A stretch of DNA of 36,344 nt from Peterkaempfera griseoplana. Its GTDB lineage: Bacteria; Actinomycetota; Actinomycetes; Streptomycetales; Streptomycetaceae. Location of the stretch: contig NZ_LIQR01000212.1 of the NCBI RefSeq assembly GCF_001418575.1, positions 1 to 36,344 on the forward strand. The letters are read 5' to 3'. The notes beneath the pieces are model-generated. The model had not been told where the DNA came from, searched no databases, and worked only from the letters and a program-made list of their open reading frames with translations. Position 1 is the first letter of the stretch; every line of letters starts with the position of its first letter. Shown piece by piece: positions 5,358-20,464 of the stretch. The translations under genes were made by a program, and so were the position numbers.

Positions 5358-6284
5358 TCAGCTCCAGCCGGGAGCAGGGGGTTCGGCGCCGCTGAACCAG
5401 TGGGCGGCGAAGACCCCGGGGGCGGGGTACGGGTGCGCCGGGTCGGTGAGCATGCGGAAGACGAACTCCGCCGTGGTCCCGTGGTACCGCTCCCAGGGGA
5501 CGGGGCCGACGTCCCGGTGGAGGACGGGCCAGCGGTCGGGATCGGGGTCCTCGGTGAGCCAGCAGAAGTCCTGCTCGTGTTCGCTGCTCGCCCACCACAG
5601 CAGCCCGCCCGGCGCCGGGAAGGGCCGGTACGGTTCCCACTGGCTGCTGCCGTGCCCTTCGGCGAACCCGGCGAGGTCCTCGGCATGCCGTCTGATCCGG
5701 TCCGGCAGGTGGATGTCGAGGTAGCCGTCGAAGGTGCCGTCTCCGAACCGCTCGATCAGTTCCTTGTAGTCGCTCGGCAGGGCGGTGCCCAGCCGGGCCT
5801 CGGCCGCCGCCCAGTCGGCCTGGCTGCGCCGGTCCGGGTCCCAGCCCGTGAGCAGCACGAGTTTGTCCACCCAGGAGGCGTCCGCCGGCAGTTCGTCGGG
5901 CTCCGGGAGGCGCCGCTCCGCGACGAGTGCCACCGGGCGTGTGTCGCCGTCGTCGCCGCGGACCGTGCCGCAGCCGACCCACCTCCCGCCGTACATCCAG
6001 GCGCGCATCGACACCAGCCGCGCTCCGAAGGGAGCGAGCAGCGGCAGTCCGGAACGGTCGTTCACCGCCGGGTCGACGTCGCCGTCCACAGCGAGGGCGC
6101 GGGGGCTTCCATGCCGGCACGAGAGCTCCTCGGCCAGCAGGAACAGGCTCTCGAAGTCCGGCACGTCCAGGCAGGTGTGGCCCGCCCTGTGTCCGTCCAC
6201 CTCGCAGCGGGGTCTCCGCAGGTGGTCCAGCGCGCCCTGGTACAGCGGCTCCACGAGGGCGTCGAGAAGTACGGTCACGTCCAT
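5358..6284 (-). CDS. SMI1/KNR4 (SUKH) domain protein
   Basis: This is a 308-residue protein whose C-terminal half matches the SUKH fold: WAAAEARLGTALPSDYKELIERFGDG at about 155-180, followed by a DIHLP segment, a WEPYRPFPAPGGLLWWAS stretch and a long terminal helix region. SUKH proteins are known mainly as immunity proteins against contact-dependent toxins, and as general binding modules. The N-terminal ~145 residues (with HxCLDVPDFESLF and VSMRAWMYGGRWVGCG) are not recognised and may be a second domain. The start codon is uncertain because no good ribosome binding site precedes the ATG at 6284. No toxin gene is adjacent. The gene converges with the methyltransferase and abuts the degenerate att copy, which is a common setting for orphan immunity genes. 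Confidence 0.7.
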   Translation of the reverse strand: MDVTVLLDALVEPLYQGALDHLRRPRCEVDGHRAGHTCLDVPDFESLFLLAEELSCRHGSPRALAVDGDVDPAVNDRSGLPLLAPFGARLVSMRAWMYGGRWVGCGTVRGDDGDTRPVALVAERRLPEPDELPADASWVDKLVLLTGWDPDRRSQADWAAAEARLGTALPSDYKELIERFGDGTFDGYLDIHLPDRIRRHAEDLAGFAEGHGSSQWEPYRPFPAPGGLLWWASSEHEQDFCWLTEDPDPDRWPVLHRDVGPVPWERYHGTTAEFVFRMLTDPAHPYPAPGVFAAHWFSGAEPPAPGWS

Positions 6285-8774: not shown

Positions 8775-10205
8775 GTGCACCAGAGAAGATCCGTCGCCGT
8801 CCTGACCGGCGGCGCCCTGTCCGCCGTCGCCCTCGGCGGTCTGCTGGCCGCCGCCCCGCAGGCGGCGGCCGCCGATGTCACCTGCTCGACCAACGTCTAC
8901 AAGCGGACGTTCTACAAGAACACCACGTTCTCCGGCTCCCCCGTACGGACCGACTGCGACGGCGCCATCAGTCAGAGCTGGTCCGGCAGCCCGGCCACCG
9001 GTGTGCCCTCGAACAACTTCGGTGTCCGCTGGTCCGTGACGCGTGACTTCGGCTCCGGCGGCCCCTTCACCTTCGCCGTCTCCGCCACCGACGGCGTCCG
9101 CGTCCACCTGGACGGGGTGCGCAAGATCGACCTGTGGAAGGGCACCGGGGACACCGCCCGCGCCAAGAGCGTCAACCTCACGGTTCCCTCCGGCAGGCAC
9201 ACCCTGCGAGTGGACTACGTGAACTGGAGCGGCGCCGCCAAGGTCGCGTTCACCTACACGCCCCGGACGTCGTCCGCGTACGACAGGACGAAGCCGCTCG
9301 CGCCCACCGGCGTGAAGACCGCCTACAGCACCAAGTCCCGCAGGACCACCGTCTCCTGGTCCGCCAACAAGGAGATGGACCTGGCCGGCTACTCCCTCTA
9401 CCGGCGGCCCGTCAGCTCCGGCACCTGGACGAAGGTCGCCACGACCACCGCCCGCAGCTACACCGATCCGCTCGTCAACCCCGACGACCGCACGCCCTAC
9501 TACTACGAGGTGCGCGCCAGGGACAAGGCGGGCAACACCTCGTCCGGCAGTGCGGACACCATCGTCCGCCCTCTGCCGGTAGTGACCTCCCTGACCGGCA
9601 CGTACGCCAAGGCCACCGGCAGGGTCACCCTGAAGTGGCCGCTCAACACCGAGCCGCAGTTCGACCACTACACGGTCCTCAGCAACGACCTGGTGGACGG
9701 CTACTACCGGTGGGTCCCGCTCGGCACCACCAAGGGCAGCACCTGGACCACCGCACCCGTCACCGCCGACGGTGAGACCCGCCACTACCGGGTCCTGGTC
9801 ACCAACGACAACGGGACCACCACCTACAGCGCCAACGGGCTGGACGCCACCGCCGCCAACGAGCTCTGGCTCGACATCCCCGACGGCATTCCCCCGGCGG
9901 TGGCCCCCGACCTGTCCCTGAGCTCCTGCGCCGGCGGCGTCCAGGCGACCGCGACCGGCTACACGCCCGCCGCGATCCGCGACTTCAGCGGCTTCGAGAT
10001 CCAGCGCCGGGTGTCCGGTGCGGCCACCTGGACGGTGGTCCTGCACAAGGGGTACGACCCGCGTCTCGACCCCGCCACCGCCACCGTCTGCGACCCGCTG
10101 CCGGCCGACGGGCGCACCTATGAATACCGGGCCCGTACCTATGACGCGTCCGGCAACTACTCGTCGTACAGCGGGACCCTGGCGGTGACCCGGCCGGTCG
10201 GCTGA
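8775..10205 (+). CDS. Secreted PA14 / fibronectin type III protein
   Basis: This is a 476-residue exported protein. Residues 1 to about 34 form a signal peptide with basic start (HQRRS), hydrophobic core and an AQAAAA-type cleavage zone. Residues about 36-165 resemble a PA14-type carbohydrate-binding domain (WSVTRDF, FTFAVSATDGVRVHLDGVRKIDLW, GRHTLRVDYVNWSGAAKVAFTYT). Three fibronectin III-like beta modules follow, at about 175-268 (APTGVKTAYSTKSRRTTVSWSANK), 272-360 and 370-472, each with the YYYEVRARDKAGN or YEYRARTYDASGN type strand. No catalytic domain or cell-wall anchor is present. GTG 8775 follows AAAGG at 5-nt spacing. It is probably an extracellular binding protein; ligand unknown. 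Confidence 0.82.
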   Translation: MHQRRSVAVLTGGALSAVALGGLLAAAPQAAAADVTCSTNVYKRTFYKNTTFSGSPVRTDCDGAISQSWSGSPATGVPSNNFGVRWSVTRDFGSGGPFTFAVSATDGVRVHLDGVRKIDLWKGTGDTARAKSVNLTVPSGRHTLRVDYVNWSGAAKVAFTYTPRTSSAYDRTKPLAPTGVKTAYSTKSRRTTVSWSANKEMDLAGYSLYRRPVSSGTWTKVATTTARSYTDPLVNPDDRTPYYYEVRARDKAGNTSSGSADTIVRPLPVVTSLTGTYAKATGRVTLKWPLNTEPQFDHYTVLSNDLVDGYYRWVPLGTTKGSTWTTAPVTADGETRHYRVLVTNDNGTTTYSANGLDATAANELWLDIPDGIPPAVAPDLSLSSCAGGVQATATGYTPAAIRDFSGFEIQRRVSGAATWTVVLHKGYDPRLDPATATVCDPLPADGRTYEYRARTYDASGNYSSYSGTLAVTRPVG

Positions 10206-11303: not shown

Positions 11304-14300
11304 TCAGCGGGCGACGGCTCCGGTCGCCTTGCTGACCGCGGTGCCGCTGGTGTGTCCGGTGCGGCGTGCGGTCACCTTGACGGTGATCCTCTTGCCGCGC
11401 TGGCCTGAACCGAGGAGGAGGGTCGACCTGGTGGCCCCCTTGATCGCCACACCGTTGGCGTACCACTGGTAGCCGTACGACGTCGGAGCGGGCGTCCAGG
11501 AGCCGTGGTAGGCGGTCAGCCGGTGTCCCACCCTGACCGTGCCGGTGATCGTCGGGGCCTTGGTGGCCTTGGGGGCGACCCCGGCGGCGACGGTCAGCGC
11601 GGCGGTGGTGGCGGAACCGTCGGAGTGCCCGGTCCGGTGCGCGGTGACGGTGACGGTCAGCTTGTGGCCCAGCAGGGCCGCGGGCGGGGTGTACGCGGAG
11701 GCGGTCGCCTTGGAGATCGCCTTGCCGTCCGCCTTCCACTGGTAGCTGTAGGAGGTGGCGGAGGGCGACCAGGTGCCCGCGGCGACGGTCAGTCTGGTCT
11801 CCACCCTTACGCTGCCGGTGATCCGCGGGGCGGTGGTGGCCCGGGGCGCCGCGCCCTTGGCGACGGTGACGGCGGGGGAGGTGGCTGTGCCGTTGACGTA
11901 CCCGGTCCGGTGGGCGGTGACGGTGACGGTGAGCTTGTGGCCCAGCAGGGCCGCGGGCGGCGTGTACGTCGAGGCGGTTGCGGTGGGGATCGCCTTGCCG
12001 TCGGCGTTCCACTGGTAGGTGTACGAGGTGGGCGTGGTCGTCCAGGTGCCGGGAGCGGCGGTGAGCCTGGCGTCGACCTGGGCGCTCCCGGTGGCCTTGG
12101 GCGCTGCGGTGTTCCTCAGCTGGGGCGGGGTGACCGTGAAGTTGCCCATGCCGAACTCGGCGCTCCTGGTGAAGACGCTCAGGTGCCAGATGCCCGCGGG
12201 GACCGCGGTGAGGTCCAGGACGGCTGTCAGGGTCCGGCGGTCGGCCGACACCGAGGTGGTGGTCGCCTCCTTCTGGACGCCGCTCTGCAGGATGCGGACC
12301 GTGTCGTCCTGGCGCAGGGCGGCGCCCGTCACCGTGATCGTGACCTTGGTCCCGCTGACACCGCCGGCGGGTGTCGCCGAGGAGACGTTGACGCGCTCGG
12401 TGCCGCAGGGCTCGGAGAGGCAGTCGAGCTCCGCGCGGTAGGCGGACTGCGAGGCGTCCTCGGGCAGGCCGATGAGCAGGGTGGTCGGGGTGGGGTCTGC
12501 GGAGTAGCTCTCGTTCACGGAGCAGCTGTAGCCCGTGGGGATGAACCGTATGCAGCCGTCGCTCAGGCGGCTGTTGTAGAGCGAGGGGACGGCGGTGGAG
12601 GGGCTGCCCGCGGTGTCGCTGACGGCGAAGTCGAAGTTGTCGCGGTACGCGGTCGGGAGCACCGCGCAGAGGGCGGTGTGCTGCTCCGTCAGGGTGCCGG
12701 TGACCGGGCCGTACCCGTAGCTGATGTTGGGCACCCTGGTGCACTCCGGGGCCGGTCCGGCGGCGGTGGCGATGCGCAGGGCGTCCAGGTGGTAGGCAGC
12801 CGCGGACTGCAGGCTCGGCGGGACGGTGACCAGGACCTGGTAGCGGGTGGAGCCGGTGACCGCGCAGGCCCTGTTCCGGTACGAGCAGACCCCCTTGCCC
12901 TGCGCGTCGTAGGCCAGGATGTTGGCCGTGCCCAGCGGGTCACGGACATTGAGGTGCAGGACGTCCCCGGCGTCCTGGGTGGTCACCTGCCGGCAGCGCA
13001 GCGTGCCCGGTGCACCGGGTGCGCCGCTGTAGGAGGCGCCACCCACCGCGACGGCCGGGGAGGGGGCGCAGCCCTTCGCGGTCTCGGTGACGTCGCGCCG
13101 GGTCAGGGTGTACTCGGCGGCGGTGTCGGTACCGGTGACCAGCACCGTGTGGGCCAGACCGGGGGTGAGGGGGCAGGTGGTCCAGGTGGACAGGGAGGGG
13201 ATGACGTAACAGACCTGCTTGCCGGTGGAGTCCAGGACCGTGAAGTCGGCGGGGGAGGAGCCGGAGACCGCCTGGAGCTGGATGTTCTCCACACTGCTGT
13301 GGTCGTCGGCGGGGATGGTCAGGCAGTCGGAGAAGACCCCACCGCCGGTGCTGATCCGGGCCTGGCCGCTGGTGTCGGTGAAGTCGCCGGCCGGCAGGGT
13401 CCGGCAGCCGCCCGCCTCGTCCGTGCGGTGCAGGGCGAGTGCGTAGGCGCCGGCGGGGTCCCGGTTGTCGGTGGTGGAGACCAGGACGCGGAACGGGGCT
13501 GCGCCGCTGAGCGCACAGGTCCCCGCCTGCAGTGAGGAGGCGTCGCACTGCTGGGCGCCGGTGGCGTCCACCACGGTGAGGTCGACCTGCGGGACGGTGC
13601 CGCTCAGCCCCTTCAGGGCTGCCAGACGGGCGCCCTGCGGCAGCGCCAGCGACAGGCAGTCGATCTCTCCGGCCGAGCCGAACGTGCCCTGGTTGAGGCC
13701 GGTGGCGGCGGCTGTGCAGCCGGTGTCGGCGGTGCGGTCCAGGATCAGGGTCTGCTGGTCGGTGTAGACGACATAGTCGCCCGCGGCGAGGGCGCAGAGC
13801 TTCCCCGCCGGGCAGACGGTCGCCCCCGACCGGTCGTACACGCCGAGTGTGGAGCGGACACCGGACGTGTCGACCTCGTAGGCGAGGTAGCGGCCGCCAC
13901 CGGGGACGGTGAACACCTTGCACTCGCTTGTCGGGTCCGCAGCGGTGGGGGCGGAGCCGTAGGCGTTCAGCGGGACGGCGGTGCAGCCGGACGGGTCGGA
14001 CAGCCTGCGGACCTTCAGCGTGTAGTCGGCGGGGAAGCCGCCCTCGGCGCTGTCGACCTGGGCGAGCACCCGGTACGGGCCGTCGCCGGGCAGTACGCAA
14101 CCGTCGCCGCCGTCGCCCGGCCTCGGGCAGATCCGGGCGCCGGTCGTGTCGGTGATCCAGGCCTCGTGGGCACCGTACTTGACGGTGCTGAAGTCGACGG
14201 CGATCCGCTCACCCGCCTTTCCGGCGAACGGGTAGCACTCGACGGCCAGCGGGCCGGGTGCGGCGGCGGTGATGGGAGGGACATCCCACGAGGTACCGGA

Positions 14301-14795
14301 CTCGGGTGCGCATCCGGTGGTGGTCGAGGCCAGGGGCACGACGGCGACCGGCACCTCCGGCAGGTCGGCCGCGCCGACGTTGGTCACCTCGAGGGTGAAG
14401 TCGCCGGCGTGCGACAGCGGGCACCAACCGTCCTGGTAATAGGTCGTGTCATAGCAGTCCACCGGGTTCTCGCCGTCGAGGACCTGGGCGTGGACGCTCT
14501 GCTGGGAGTTGTCCACGAGGACCCGGTACAGGCCGGGCTGGTCGGCGGTGAAGGTGAAGCAGACGCTCCCCTCGGCGGGGATCGCCGGGCGGCCGGCGGC
14601 GGGTCCCGCGTCACCGAACGCGGACAGCGGCAGGACCGCGCAGCCGTCGTCGGCAGCGGCCGCGCCGGTGCCGGCTGCGGTGTCGTACGCCCACGCGGCG
14701 CCGGCCGGGAGCAGCAGCGACAGCAGGACCGAGAGAGCGAGCAGCAGTGCGGTGTACGACGCCAACCTTGCGTCCGTACACGGGCGGTGAGGCAT
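11304..14795 (-). CDS. Large secreted protein: seven four-Cys modules plus Ig-like repeats
   Basis: This is an 1163-residue exported protein. A signal peptide covers residues 1 to about 36 (LLLALSVLLSLLLPAGAAWA). Residues about 50-790 hold seven modules of about 100 residues, each opening with a C (usually GC) and containing four cysteines spaced C-x(19-26)-C-x(34-37)-C-x(5-11)-C. The cysteines fall near 52/79/114/125, 162/187/223/233, 271/292/328/334, 360/380/417/427, 464/491/529/541, 576/601/637/644 and 685/710/748/758. Each module has PPC-like (pre-peptidase C-terminal) beta-strand text. An IPT/TIG-like domain (about 800-895) and three 91-residue Ig-like repeats follow (about 898-1163; YxYQWxADGKAI, LLGHKLTVTVTAHRTG). 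No sortase motif, membrane anchor or catalytic domain is seen. ATG 14795 is preceded by GGGGGGA. The role is unknown; matrix, adhesion or carbohydrate binding would be a guess. Confidence 0.82.
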   Translation of the reverse strand: MPHRPCTDARLASYTALLLALSVLLSLLLPAGAAWAYDTAAGTGAAAADDGCAVLPLSAFGDAGPAAGRPAIPAEGSVCFTFTADQPGLYRVLVDNSQQSVHAQVLDGENPVDCYDTTYYQDGWCPLSHAGDFTLEVTNVGAADLPEVPVAVVPLASTTTGCAPESGTSWDVPPITAAAPGPLAVECYPFAGKAGERIAVDFSTVKYGAHEAWITDTTGARICPRPGDGGDGCVLPGDGPYRVLAQVDSAEGGFPADYTLKVRRLSDPSGCTAVPLNAYGSAPTAADPTSECKVFTVPGGGRYLAYEVDTSGVRSTLGVYDRSGATVCPAGKLCALAAGDYVVYTDQQTLILDRTADTGCTAAATGLNQGTFGSAGEIDCLSLALPQGARLAALKGLSGTVPQVDLTVVDATGAQQCDASSLQAGTCALSGAAPFRVLVSTTDNRDPAGAYALALHRTDEAGGCRTLPAGDFTDTSGQARISTGGGVFSDCLTIPADDHSSVENIQLQAVSGSSPADFTVLDSTGKQVCYVIPSLSTWTTCPLTPGLAHTVLVTGTDTAAEYTLTRRDVTETAKGCAPSPAVAVGGASYSGAPGAPGTLRCRQVTTQDAGDVLHLNVRDPLGTANILAYDAQGKGVCSYRNRACAVTGSTRYQVLVTVPPSLQSAAAYHLDALRIATAAGPAPECTRVPNISYGYGPVTGTLTEQHTALCAVLPTAYRDNFDFAVSDTAGSPSTAVPSLYNSRLSDGCIRFIPTGYSCSVNESYSADPTPTTLLIGLPEDASQSAYRAELDCLSEPCGTERVNVSSATPAGGVSGTKVTITVTGAALRQDDTVRILQSGVQKEATTTSVSADRRTLTAVLDLTAVPAGIWHLSVFTRSAEFGMGNFTVTPPQLRNTAAPKATGSAQVDARLTAAPGTWTTTPTSYTYQWNADGKAIPTATASTYTPPAALLGHKLTVTVTAHRTGYVNGTATSPAVTVAKGAAPRATTAPRITGSVRVETRLTVAAGTWSPSATSYSYQWKADGKAISKATASAYTPPAALLGHKLTVTVTAHRTGHSDGSATTAALTVAAGVAPKATKAPTITGTVRVGHRLTAYHGSWTPAPTSYGYQWYANGVAIKGATRSTLLLGSGQRGKRITVKVTARRTGHTSGTAVSKATGAVAR
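11536..12110 (-). repeat. 273-bp tandem DNA repeats encoding the Ig-like domains
   Basis: The stretch around 11641-11760 recurs at 11914-12035 with an offset of 273 bp (91 codons), with long runs identical at the DNA level (for example the cagcagggccgcgggcgg core). A third, more diverged unit lies at the gene's 3' end. The high nucleotide identity between the first two units suggests recent duplication or gene conversion. Confidence 0.7.
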
Positions 14796-15058
14796 TCCGT
14801 CCCCCCGGGGCGGTCATGTGGTGTGAGCGGCCCGCCCCCGGCACTCTCCGTGCCGGGGCGGCGGTAGTGGTCTGATGCACGCTTCCGCAGGACCCCCGGC
14901 ATCCGCTGTCGGCCCGCTCCTGGGACACGGGGCGGGCGTGATGCCATGTGCGTGCGCGCGCATGATGATCGCACACGTGTATCACCTCGTGTGCGGAATA
15001 TCTGCACACGCCTCAACGGCTGCGGGCGCTCCCCTCGTCCGTGCCCGGGCGCCGCCGG
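14796..15058. promoter_or_regulatory. Intergenic control region of the large secreted protein gene
   Basis: This 263-bp gap precedes the large gene and follows the DUF397 gene, both on the minus strand. It contains a GC-rich hairpin at about 14831-14862 (GCCCCCGGCA facing TGCCGGGGC), which could terminate the upstream operon. It also has a perfect 8-bp inverted repeat CGCACACG (14970-14977) / CGTGTGCG (14988-14995) with a 10-nt spacer, followed by another CACACG at 15004-15009. The latter looks like a dyad operator. I see no gene here. Confidence 0.4.
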
Positions 15059-18878: not shown

Positions 18879-19178
18879 ATGGGGGACTTCTTCTCAGTTG
18901 AACTGCAGAGCCTCGACAAACTGCTGCAGCAACTGCACTCGAGTCAGGACGAGCTGCGGACCGCGCTGAACGCGCTCCGTGACACCGGGGTGCGGACCAC
19001 CGGCAGCTCGGCGCTCGACCATGCCTGCGACGAGTTCCATGACAGCTGGGACGACGCGATCAAGAAGATCGCGGAAGGGACCGAGCAGATCGAGTCCGGT
19101 CTGCAACTGGTCTGCAGGACCTACGGGGAGACCGAGCAGGCTCTCGCCCAGGCGATGAAGGGCGGGGAGGGGGCATGA
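18879..19178 (+). CDS. WXG100-like small protein
   Basis: This 99-residue, almost entirely helical protein (LQSLDKLLQQLHSSQDELRT, LDHACDEFHDSWDDAIKKIA, EQIESGLQLVCRTYGETEQA) has the length and helix-turn-helix layout of WXG100/ESX substrates, with a central W. The strict WxG turn is replaced by WDD. It is expected to form a helical hairpin and pair with a partner for type VII secretion or act as its companion. ATG 18879 follows GGAG (18871-18874); the frame is open upstream but starts there lack a ribosome binding site. Its stop overlaps the next start (ATGA), so it is the first gene of a coupled operon. Confidence 0.78.
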   Translation: MGDFFSVELQSLDKLLQQLHSSQDELRTALNALRDTGVRTTGSSALDHACDEFHDSWDDAIKKIAEGTEQIESGLQLVCRTYGETEQALAQAMKGGEGA

Positions 19179-20464
19179 GCGACAGCGCGTTCCCCGCACT
19201 CGGCTTCGACCCCGCACCCGGTGACACCGGCAATGTGGACCAGCTGGTCGACCGGCTCAACCGGGCCGCCGGAGCCCTCAGCGGCGCCCATCAGCTGCTG
19301 ACCTCGGTCGCCTCCGGCGGATCCACCTGGGAGGGCGAGGCCGCCAGGGCCTTCGCCGGCAAGGTCGGCGAGCTGCCCGGCTATCTGGACGACAGCGCCC
19401 AGGCGGTGAAGGAGGCGTCCGCTCAACTGGGCGGCTGGAGCCTGACGCTGGCCTCGTACCAGGAGACCGCCCGCCGCTACGAGCAGCAGGCCGCCGAGGC
19501 CCGTCAGAAGCTGCAGGACGCCGAGACCCGGGTCGACCAGGCCACCGGCGCCTACAACCAGGCGGCCGACAACCCCGCCTTCGGTCTCCAGGGCCGCTTC
19601 TACAGCGACGCCTCGGAACTGGCCGCCGCCCAGCAGCAGTTGGACGCCGCCCAGAAGACCGTGGACGAGGCCGCCGGCAGGCTGGACGCGGCCAAGGGAC
19701 AGCTCTCGGAGATCCAGGACGAACTGGACGCGGTCATCAAGCAGGCCAAGGAGCTGCTGGAGCACCACCAGGACGACGCGGGCAAGGTGGCCAAGTCGCT
19801 GCGCAAGGCGACCAAGGGTGCCCCCAGCACCAGTATCTGGGACAAGCTGGGTGATGCCTTCCAGCGCATCGGCCACAAGATCAAGGACTGGGCCACCGAG
19901 CACGCCGACCTGCTGAAGAAGATCGGCGACATCGCTTCCGCCGCCTCCGCGGTCCTGGGCATCGCGGCCCTGGCGACCGTGTGGTGCCCGCCGCTGTCCG
20001 GTGCGCTGGCCGGTGCCGCAGCGGGGGCCTCGGTGGTCGCCCTGGGGGCGCACGGCCTCGCCAAGCTGGGCGGCGCGGACGTGAAGTGGTCGACGCTGAT
20101 CGGCGACGGCATCGGCGCCTTCCCCTTCGGCAAGACCGTGGGCATCGCGGGCAAGGGCGTCACCGCGGCGAGCAGGGCGCTCAAGCTGGGCAGGGTCGCG
20201 GGCAGCGGCCGGATCCTCAACGCCACCGGCGGCCTGCTGAAGTCCCACATCCTCGACGGCGGCATCGCCAACAAGGTGATCAGCAAGACGCTCGCCAGAA
20301 CCCCGGTCAGCAAGCTGCCCAGCTTCGCCGCGCACCTCGGTGAGGACGGCGTCCTCAAGACCGAGTCCTGGTGGTCGCGCGGCGTCCAGCTCGGCTACAA
20401 GGTGCCGCTCGCGGGTCTCAGCGTGCCGCGGGCCGTCCGGGAACTCAACGGTGATGCCGCATGA
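19175..20464 (+). CDS. Putative T7SS-secreted protein (WXG/LXG-like), no recognised toxin domain
   Basis: This is a 429-residue protein. The N-terminal ~100 residues resemble the helical targeting domain of actinobacterial T7SS-secreted proteins, with the motif GGSTWEGEAARAFAGKV supplying WEG. Residues about 100-225 form long coiled-coil-like helices (EQQAAEARQKLQDAETRVDQ, QQQLDAAQKTVDEAAGRLDA). Residues about 250-300 are hydrophobic and Ala/Gly-rich (ASAASAVLGIAALATVW, LAGAAAGASVVALGAHGLA), like a pre-toxin or membrane-inserting segment. The remaining C-terminal ~130 residues match no toxin family that I know and contain no obvious catalytic motif. It overlaps both neighbours by 4 bp (ATGA). 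No secretion ATPase or EccC-type gene is nearby. Confidence 0.75.
   Translation: MSDSAFPALGFDPAPGDTGNVDQLVDRLNRAAGALSGAHQLLTSVASGGSTWEGEAARAFAGKVGELPGYLDDSAQAVKEASAQLGGWSLTLASYQETARRYEQQAAEARQKLQDAETRVDQATGAYNQAADNPAFGLQGRFYSDASELAAAQQQLDAAQKTVDEAAGRLDAAKGQLSEIQDELDAVIKQAKELLEHHQDDAGKVAKSLRKATKGAPSTSIWDKLGDAFQRIGHKIKDWATEHADLLKKIGDIASAASAVLGIAALATVWCPPLSGALAGAAAGASVVALGAHGLAKLGGADVKWSTLIGDGIGAFPFGKTVGIAGKGVTAASRALKLGRVAGSGRILNATGGLLKSHILDGGIANKVISKTLARTPVSKLPSFAAHLGEDGVLKTESWWSRGVQLGYKVPLAGLSVPRAVRELNGDAA

Follow-up and report, generated by a model that had tools for sequence, protein, structure and literature searches.

Seven tandem four-cysteine modules, two of them predicted to adopt a PPC/collagen-binding-type fold, in a putatively secreted protein of Peterkaempfera griseoplana

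In a 36,344-nucleotide stretch of DNA from the actinomycete Peterkaempfera griseoplana (NCBI RefSeq assembly GCF_001418575.1, contig NZ_LIQR01000212.1, positions 1 to 36,344; hereafter the window), we followed up a gene on the reverse strand whose 1163-residue product had been described from sequence alone (hereafter the original prediction) as a secreted protein with seven tandem four-cysteine modules. That observation is right, and its first interpretation, a PPC-like domain in a large extracellular binding protein, is mostly right. The modules, which take up about two thirds of the protein and are named by no Pfam or NCBIfam model, represent a known fold in an unnamed form that is not rare: modules 2 and 5 are predicted to form the beta-sandwich of PPC and collagen-binding domains, yet profile tests do not place the modules in the Pfam PPC family (PF04151). 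On balance, we consider it probable that this is a secreted, non-enzymatic multidomain protein that binds or bridges polymers or cell surfaces, as an adhesin or matrix scaffold. Its parts, all on the reverse strand, are as follows.

11304–14795, reverse strand: whole gene of the secreted 1163-residue protein, stop codon included; open frame with GC content at third codon positions (GC3) of 0.94 and relatives at 49–63% identity
14688–14795, reverse strand: signal peptide, residues 1–36, read from the sequence, with cleavage near AWA by eye
14316–14645, reverse strand: four-cysteine module 1
13989–14315, reverse strand: four-cysteine module 2, modelled alone with a PPC/collagen-binding fold
13722–13988, reverse strand: four-cysteine module 3, the shortest
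13410–13721, reverse strand: four-cysteine module 4, first of the apparent conserved core
13074–13409, reverse strand: four-cysteine module 5, best matched by collagen-binding domain s3b of ColG
12747–13073, reverse strand: four-cysteine module 6
12426–12746, reverse strand: four-cysteine module 7, the last of the array
12405–12422, reverse strand: C-x4-C loop, residues 792–797, at the junction of module 7 and the IPT domain, both cysteines invariant in 16 aligned rows
12123–12395, reverse strand: IPT/TIG-fold domain, residues 801–891
11307–12122, reverse strand: three Ig-like repeats, residues 892–1163, like phage decoration and tail proteins

The gene has a coding-type composition (GC3 0.94, and 0.60 at second positions), its relatives at 49–63% identity are full-length or almost so, and a hydrophobic leader also precedes the array in many relatives. 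The array originally placed at about residues 50–760 is there, with its limits shifted: the modules run from residue 51 to 790. As had been proposed, neither an enzyme nor a cell-wall anchor was seen, in that no enzyme domain exceeded the curated cut-off (Pfam, NCBIfam) in this protein or in the ten relatives scanned alongside it (11 proteins in total; scattered matches below the cut-off in the relatives were taken as chance), and no LPXTG-like C-terminal end was found by eye in the window protein.

One of the 31 cysteines lies in the leader, and the other 30, all within residues 52–797, make up seven C-x(19-26)-C-x(34-37)-C-x(5-11)-C quartets of the spacing first described, plus the one C-x4-C pair. 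Chance origin of this pattern is ruled out, as 20,000 shuffles of residues 37–800 gave no quartet in 19,421 cases, one in 575, two in 4, and three or more in none. Pairwise identity among the seven modules is 12–35% (mean 23%), and an alignment of 49 modules of seven proteins, drawn from a set of 112 modules in 16 proteins, has no invariant columns other than the four cysteines, in agreement with the little sequence identity originally noted. An iterated profile gathered 605 module copies in 85 frames, some being one gene fetched twice. Of the 540 distinct module segments, 516 carry four cysteines, 19 carry five (all last modules reaching the first cysteine of the C-x4-C loop), five carry two, and none has one or three; here, the relatives are not independent, the counts depend on how segments were cut, and a cysteine-rich profile may miss cysteine-free modules. 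Two of the five two-cysteine segments belong to L151, a fragmentary frame that looks frameshifted by eye; the remaining three, modules 1, 3, and 5 of locus L138, are without C3 and C4 but retain C1 and C2. In this L138 array (genome G733, from another family of the class), two-cysteine modules alternate with four-cysteine ones in the first part. Moreover, the first module of four nine-module relatives (L025, L026, L027, and L029) has a C-x11-C motif in place of the usual C1–C2 spacing, so that the change is again confined to the C1–C2 pair.

Because cysteines, where lost, are lost together as a pair, the disulfides are likely C1–C2 and C3–C4 within each module, and the even counts likewise suggest the paired, disulfide-type cysteines of the original prediction. 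In the model of module 5, C3 (residue 482) and C4 (residue 494) sit on strands 480–487 and 489–495, equidistant from the turn at residue 488, and in that of module 2 both flank the loop linking strands 61–63 and 73–74. A bond from C4 of one module to C1 of the next is disfavoured, given that the L138 modules that follow those lacking C3 and C4 keep their C1, and that the four-module relatives L023 and L024 begin at module 4 with all four cysteines present.

For the fold, we used an AlphaFold2 model of the array (residues 48–896, 16 aligned rows; mean predicted local distance difference test score, pLDDT, 84.4; predicted TM-score, pTM, 0.65) and another of module 2 alone (49 module rows; pLDDT 85.7, pTM 0.79), the two sharing sequences and thus not being independent. 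The best match of module 5, as modelled within the array, was the collagen-binding domain s3b of ColG (1nqj_A), with a Z score of 12.2 and a root-mean-square deviation (rmsd) of 2.1 over 95 of the 96 chain residues, and that of module 2 was ColH s3 (3jqw_C; Z 10.8, rmsd 2.3, 96 residues), followed by PliG (Z 10.4), other collagen-binding domains, and then GOLD domains (8.6). Foldseek with module 2 returned ColH (three chains of one entry), the PPC domain of a Bacillus anthracis collagenase, and ColG as its top five rows. Thus, the PPC-like guess is borne out by the models of these two modules. By sequence, PPC was the commonest Pfam match of the 49 modules, though a weak one (3/49, best E value 0.00095), no solved relative was found for the module profile at E 10, and the genome of the window gave no PPC match at E 0.001.

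The closest known systems are the collagen-binding domains s3a and s3b of ColG and s3 of ColH from Hathewaya histolytica, which belong to the PPC family. They resemble modules 2 and 5 as beta-sandwiches of about 95–120 residues (Z 9.4–12.2), and in ColG they also stand in tandem, as do the modules here; in contrast, they are attached to a collagenase, whereas the array has seven copies, four conserved cysteines per copy, no enzyme, and no Pfam PPC match. A metalloprotease PPC-like domain (2luw_A), which we take to be vEP C-ter100 of Vibrio vulnificus, has a C-x10-C pair after a DLYL stretch, at what would be the place of C3 and C4 in the modules, although it was matched by a Streptomycetaceae PPC domain only, not by the modules, and has one such pair in the aligned stretch. 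Four-cysteine PPC domains have already been described in Grimontia and Vibrio collagenases (PMC6168687). According to that paper, the PPC domain of Grimontia hollisae has four cysteines in two disulfides, as determined by mass, and binds collagen without calcium, while collagen-binding domains of the ColG/ColH type bind none without calcium. The Grimontia and Vibrio M9A domains share the cysteine count of our modules and differ in being carried on a collagenase, unlike the enzyme-free modules. Hence, of the claim for a new cysteine module, what stands is a sequence family lacking a Pfam or NCBIfam model; the fold is not new, and four cysteines in a PPC domain, given PMC6168687, are not new either. 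We found no description of the module family among the titles and abstract openings that our literature searches listed.

The two predicted C-terminal parts also hold. The IPT-like domain is recognized by fold and not by Pfam score: residues 801–891 superpose on a MET receptor fragment (5lsp_A) with Z 11.5 and rmsd 1.7 over 82 residues, with plexin, NF-kB, and EBF rows next, while the Pfam TIG score (PF01833) of 10.9 bits is below the cut-off of 20.9. The three Ig-like repeats are alike, with 57/81, 43/85, and 46/87 identical residues. They match phage proteins in PHROGs (E 4.9e-32 and 3.3e-27), the structure 5lxk_A (E 0.0025), and the ZirU family (NF040485) at 48.1 bits, below its cut-off of 100; unlike in phage and ZirU proteins, the repeats here come last, behind a cysteine-module array. 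In phages, Ig-like domains bind sugars on surfaces. Elsewhere in the same genome, a locus (G000:C222:3836-4369, L002) has Ig-like repeats 49% identical to this tail. Among relatives, the tail varies, being made of FG-GAP repeats in L006, of DUF7619 in L138, and in others of a stretch without a Pfam model above the cut-off.

Taken as a mechanism, the protein would be exported via its signal peptide, and each module would fold into a beta-sandwich of the PPC/collagen-binding type, as predicted by the models of modules 2 and 5 and presumed for the other five, which is closed by the two intra-module disulfides that parity, loss by pair, and strand positions suggest. The seven modules, the C-x4-C clamp, and the IPT domain might then make up a rod that is stiff and resists proteases, while the tail, which is Ig-like here and of other kinds in relatives, might offer a second contact. 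The job of the whole would most likely be to attach to insoluble polymers or cell surfaces near the hyphae and link them together. A large extracellular binding protein, as first proposed, fits by analogy; we suggest the binding role because of what PPC-type domains do elsewhere, the Grimontia PPC domain, for one, binding collagen (PMC6168687).

Several points weigh against this picture. For the fold, the 1163-residue protein gave no Pfam PPC row even at E 1 (cut-off 25.9 bits), and the similarity that hhalign gave to 29 PPC domains from related genomes was weak, its three runs yielding probabilities of 7.9, 9.0, and 21.6% (a reversed-PPC control for two of them gave 2.7 and 2.1%); it is because this sequence evidence is weak that we speak of a PPC fold and not of PPC members. 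With the whole array as the query, the top Foldseek rows were mostly eukaryotic multi-domain chains of low TM-score, the ColG tandem domain coming ninth, a ranking that counts for little in our view, since single domains are blurred in one long model. For the role, the fold of module 2 is also like that of PliG, GOLD, and other domains, so the fold does not fix the ligand. Moreover, no neighbouring gene keeps its place beside the array gene in the loci of relatives, the array model has a pTM of no more than 0.65, such that the rod shape goes beyond what the model shows, and with no cell-wall anchor seen, retention at the surface is a guess.

How the modules are ordered bears on what they do. 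Our module-by-module comparison with the window protein covered 19 of the 85 frames. In six orthologs, each module is closest to the module at the same position (42/42), which rules out a recent repeat expansion. Seven more distantly related proteins of the family all end in four modules that correspond to 4, 5, 6, and 7 in that order (7/7), with less regular matches for the modules before them. Short forms (L023, L024, and L149) consist of modules matching 4–7, with a leader shown in L024 and none clear in L023; L156 and L157 match through module 5 and then stop; and L138 has a blurred order, in which just the final module finds its counterpart, module 7. Across the 16 rows, invariant columns amount to 37, 29, and 31% in modules 5, 6, and 7, 25 and 23% in modules 2 and 4, and 11% in modules 1 and 3. 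Because positions match in order and columns are conserved, we take the array to be old, with modules 4–7 as its apparent core. A wider reading, which we put forward only tentatively, is that of a new actinobacterial family of extracellular rods. In these, an ancient, strictly ordered, enzyme-free array of disulfide-linked PPC-fold modules would have a binding role of its own at each position, conserved above all in modules 4–7 together with the clamp (C-x4-C) and IPT parts, and the target would be set by tails that can be exchanged.

The same data speak to a different explanation, namely that of a purely structural extracellular or spore/hypha-coat protein, in which the modules are rigid disulfide spacers and the tail alone contacts a partner. 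Modules sharing little beyond their cysteines would suit spacers, as would the variation in module matches per frame (4–9, the fragmentary L151, which has 2, being set aside). We nonetheless think it unlikely, given the ordered match of the last four modules in all seven distant proteins, the invariant columns of modules 5–7 (29–37% versus 11–25% elsewhere), which exceed the needs of a spacer, and the fact that PPC domains of known function bind substrates. That the array serves in trans, as the accessory of a split exoenzyme, bringing to its substrate a protease that is secreted separately, appears improbable: the module fold is indeed that of peptidase-appended domains, but none of the 11 proteins scanned has a fused peptidase domain (a peptidase could still be encoded elsewhere in the genome), and even the most shared neighbour occurs in only 8 of 16 loci. 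Least probable, and very much so, is an array of inhibitors, each module blocking a secreted lysozyme or protease in the manner of PliG-fold inhibitors, since module 2 does match PliG (4dy5_B; Z 10.4, rmsd 3.1, 99 residues) within 1 Z unit of its best collagen-binding row, but the best collagen-binding domain fits module 2 at a lower rmsd (2.3) and module 5 at a higher Z score (12.2).

With regard to distribution, two of the three genomes of the genus match, its own and another at 63% identity over the whole length, and within the family there is an array match in 58 of the 297 sampled genomes and 5 of the 17 genera (E 1e-10). A scan of genome contigs gave 21 loci, 15 of them Streptomyces loci with the array (L035–L049, one titled [Kitasatospora] papulosa) and six whose match is limited to the IPT and Ig-like part (residue 834 onwards). 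Nine of 394 genomes of the class match; outside the family, the module part is present in G509, G850, and G733, and only the IPT part in G754. The genus to which G509 belongs has matches in 22 of its 101 genomes: 11 extend over more than 500 array positions, seven of them being interrupted by a stop codon, that of G1059 covers a part of the array, and the remaining ten are confined to the IPT part. A scan of 396 genomes of the phylum with the module profile, in which 12 candidates per genome were scored, gave at least three hits. The array gene also occurs in 22 records of Streptomyces plasmids, and in two plasmid records examined it adjoins an MFS transporter gene. On pSCL4 of Streptomyces clavuligerus and other plasmids, some relatives bear the name 'cell envelope integrity protein TolA' and some 'Tat pathway signal protein', which are probably wrong annotations. 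A phage origin of the array was rejected, as none of 50,697 phage records matches it, and so was a defence protein, there being no PADLOC match.

Around the gene, no operon partner was found, the most shared neighbour occurring in 8/16 loci, and no window neighbour falls in a cluster of at least three loci. The upstream DUF5753 regulator has relatives in 4/17 loci (44% identity in L041 and 25–29% in three), all 4.4–6.5 kb beyond the array gene and not adjoining it, and MFS and SDR neighbours in the window have matches in 2 and 1 of the 17 loci, respectively. A second secreted protein is encoded nearby (8775–10205, forward strand), with a PA14 domain (E 1.2e-10) and what look by eye like fibronectin-type parts; the relatives' 17 loci contain no match to it. 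The window also codes for a SUKH/SMI1-KNR4 protein (5358–6284, reverse strand), of a family that often provides immunity to polymorphic toxins, and for a protein with a type VII secretion system signal, WXG100-like (19175–20464, forward strand). Upstream of the array gene lies one further feature.

14964–14976, reverse strand: GTGTGCGATCATC, conserved element upstream of the gene

This element of 12–13 bases, GTGTGCGATCATC or a near form, precedes 14 of the 16 genes compared (the window and L035–L049), and in some it is followed by an inverted copy, TCGCACACAT. Its pattern, GTGTGCGAYSATC, was set after viewing the alignment and is found once in the genome of the window; among 13 further relatives, the element is present in only 3. 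A regulon was rejected, the pattern being single-copy in the genome, and the element is possibly a gene-specific operator or promoter.

In the array, a fold known above all from accessory domains of peptidases is used by itself and in repeats, with conserved and probably bonded cysteines. Naming the module could allow annotators to correct the 'TolA' and 'Tat pathway signal protein' records, and the module offers a defined target for studying how the hyphae of Streptomyces attach to surfaces.

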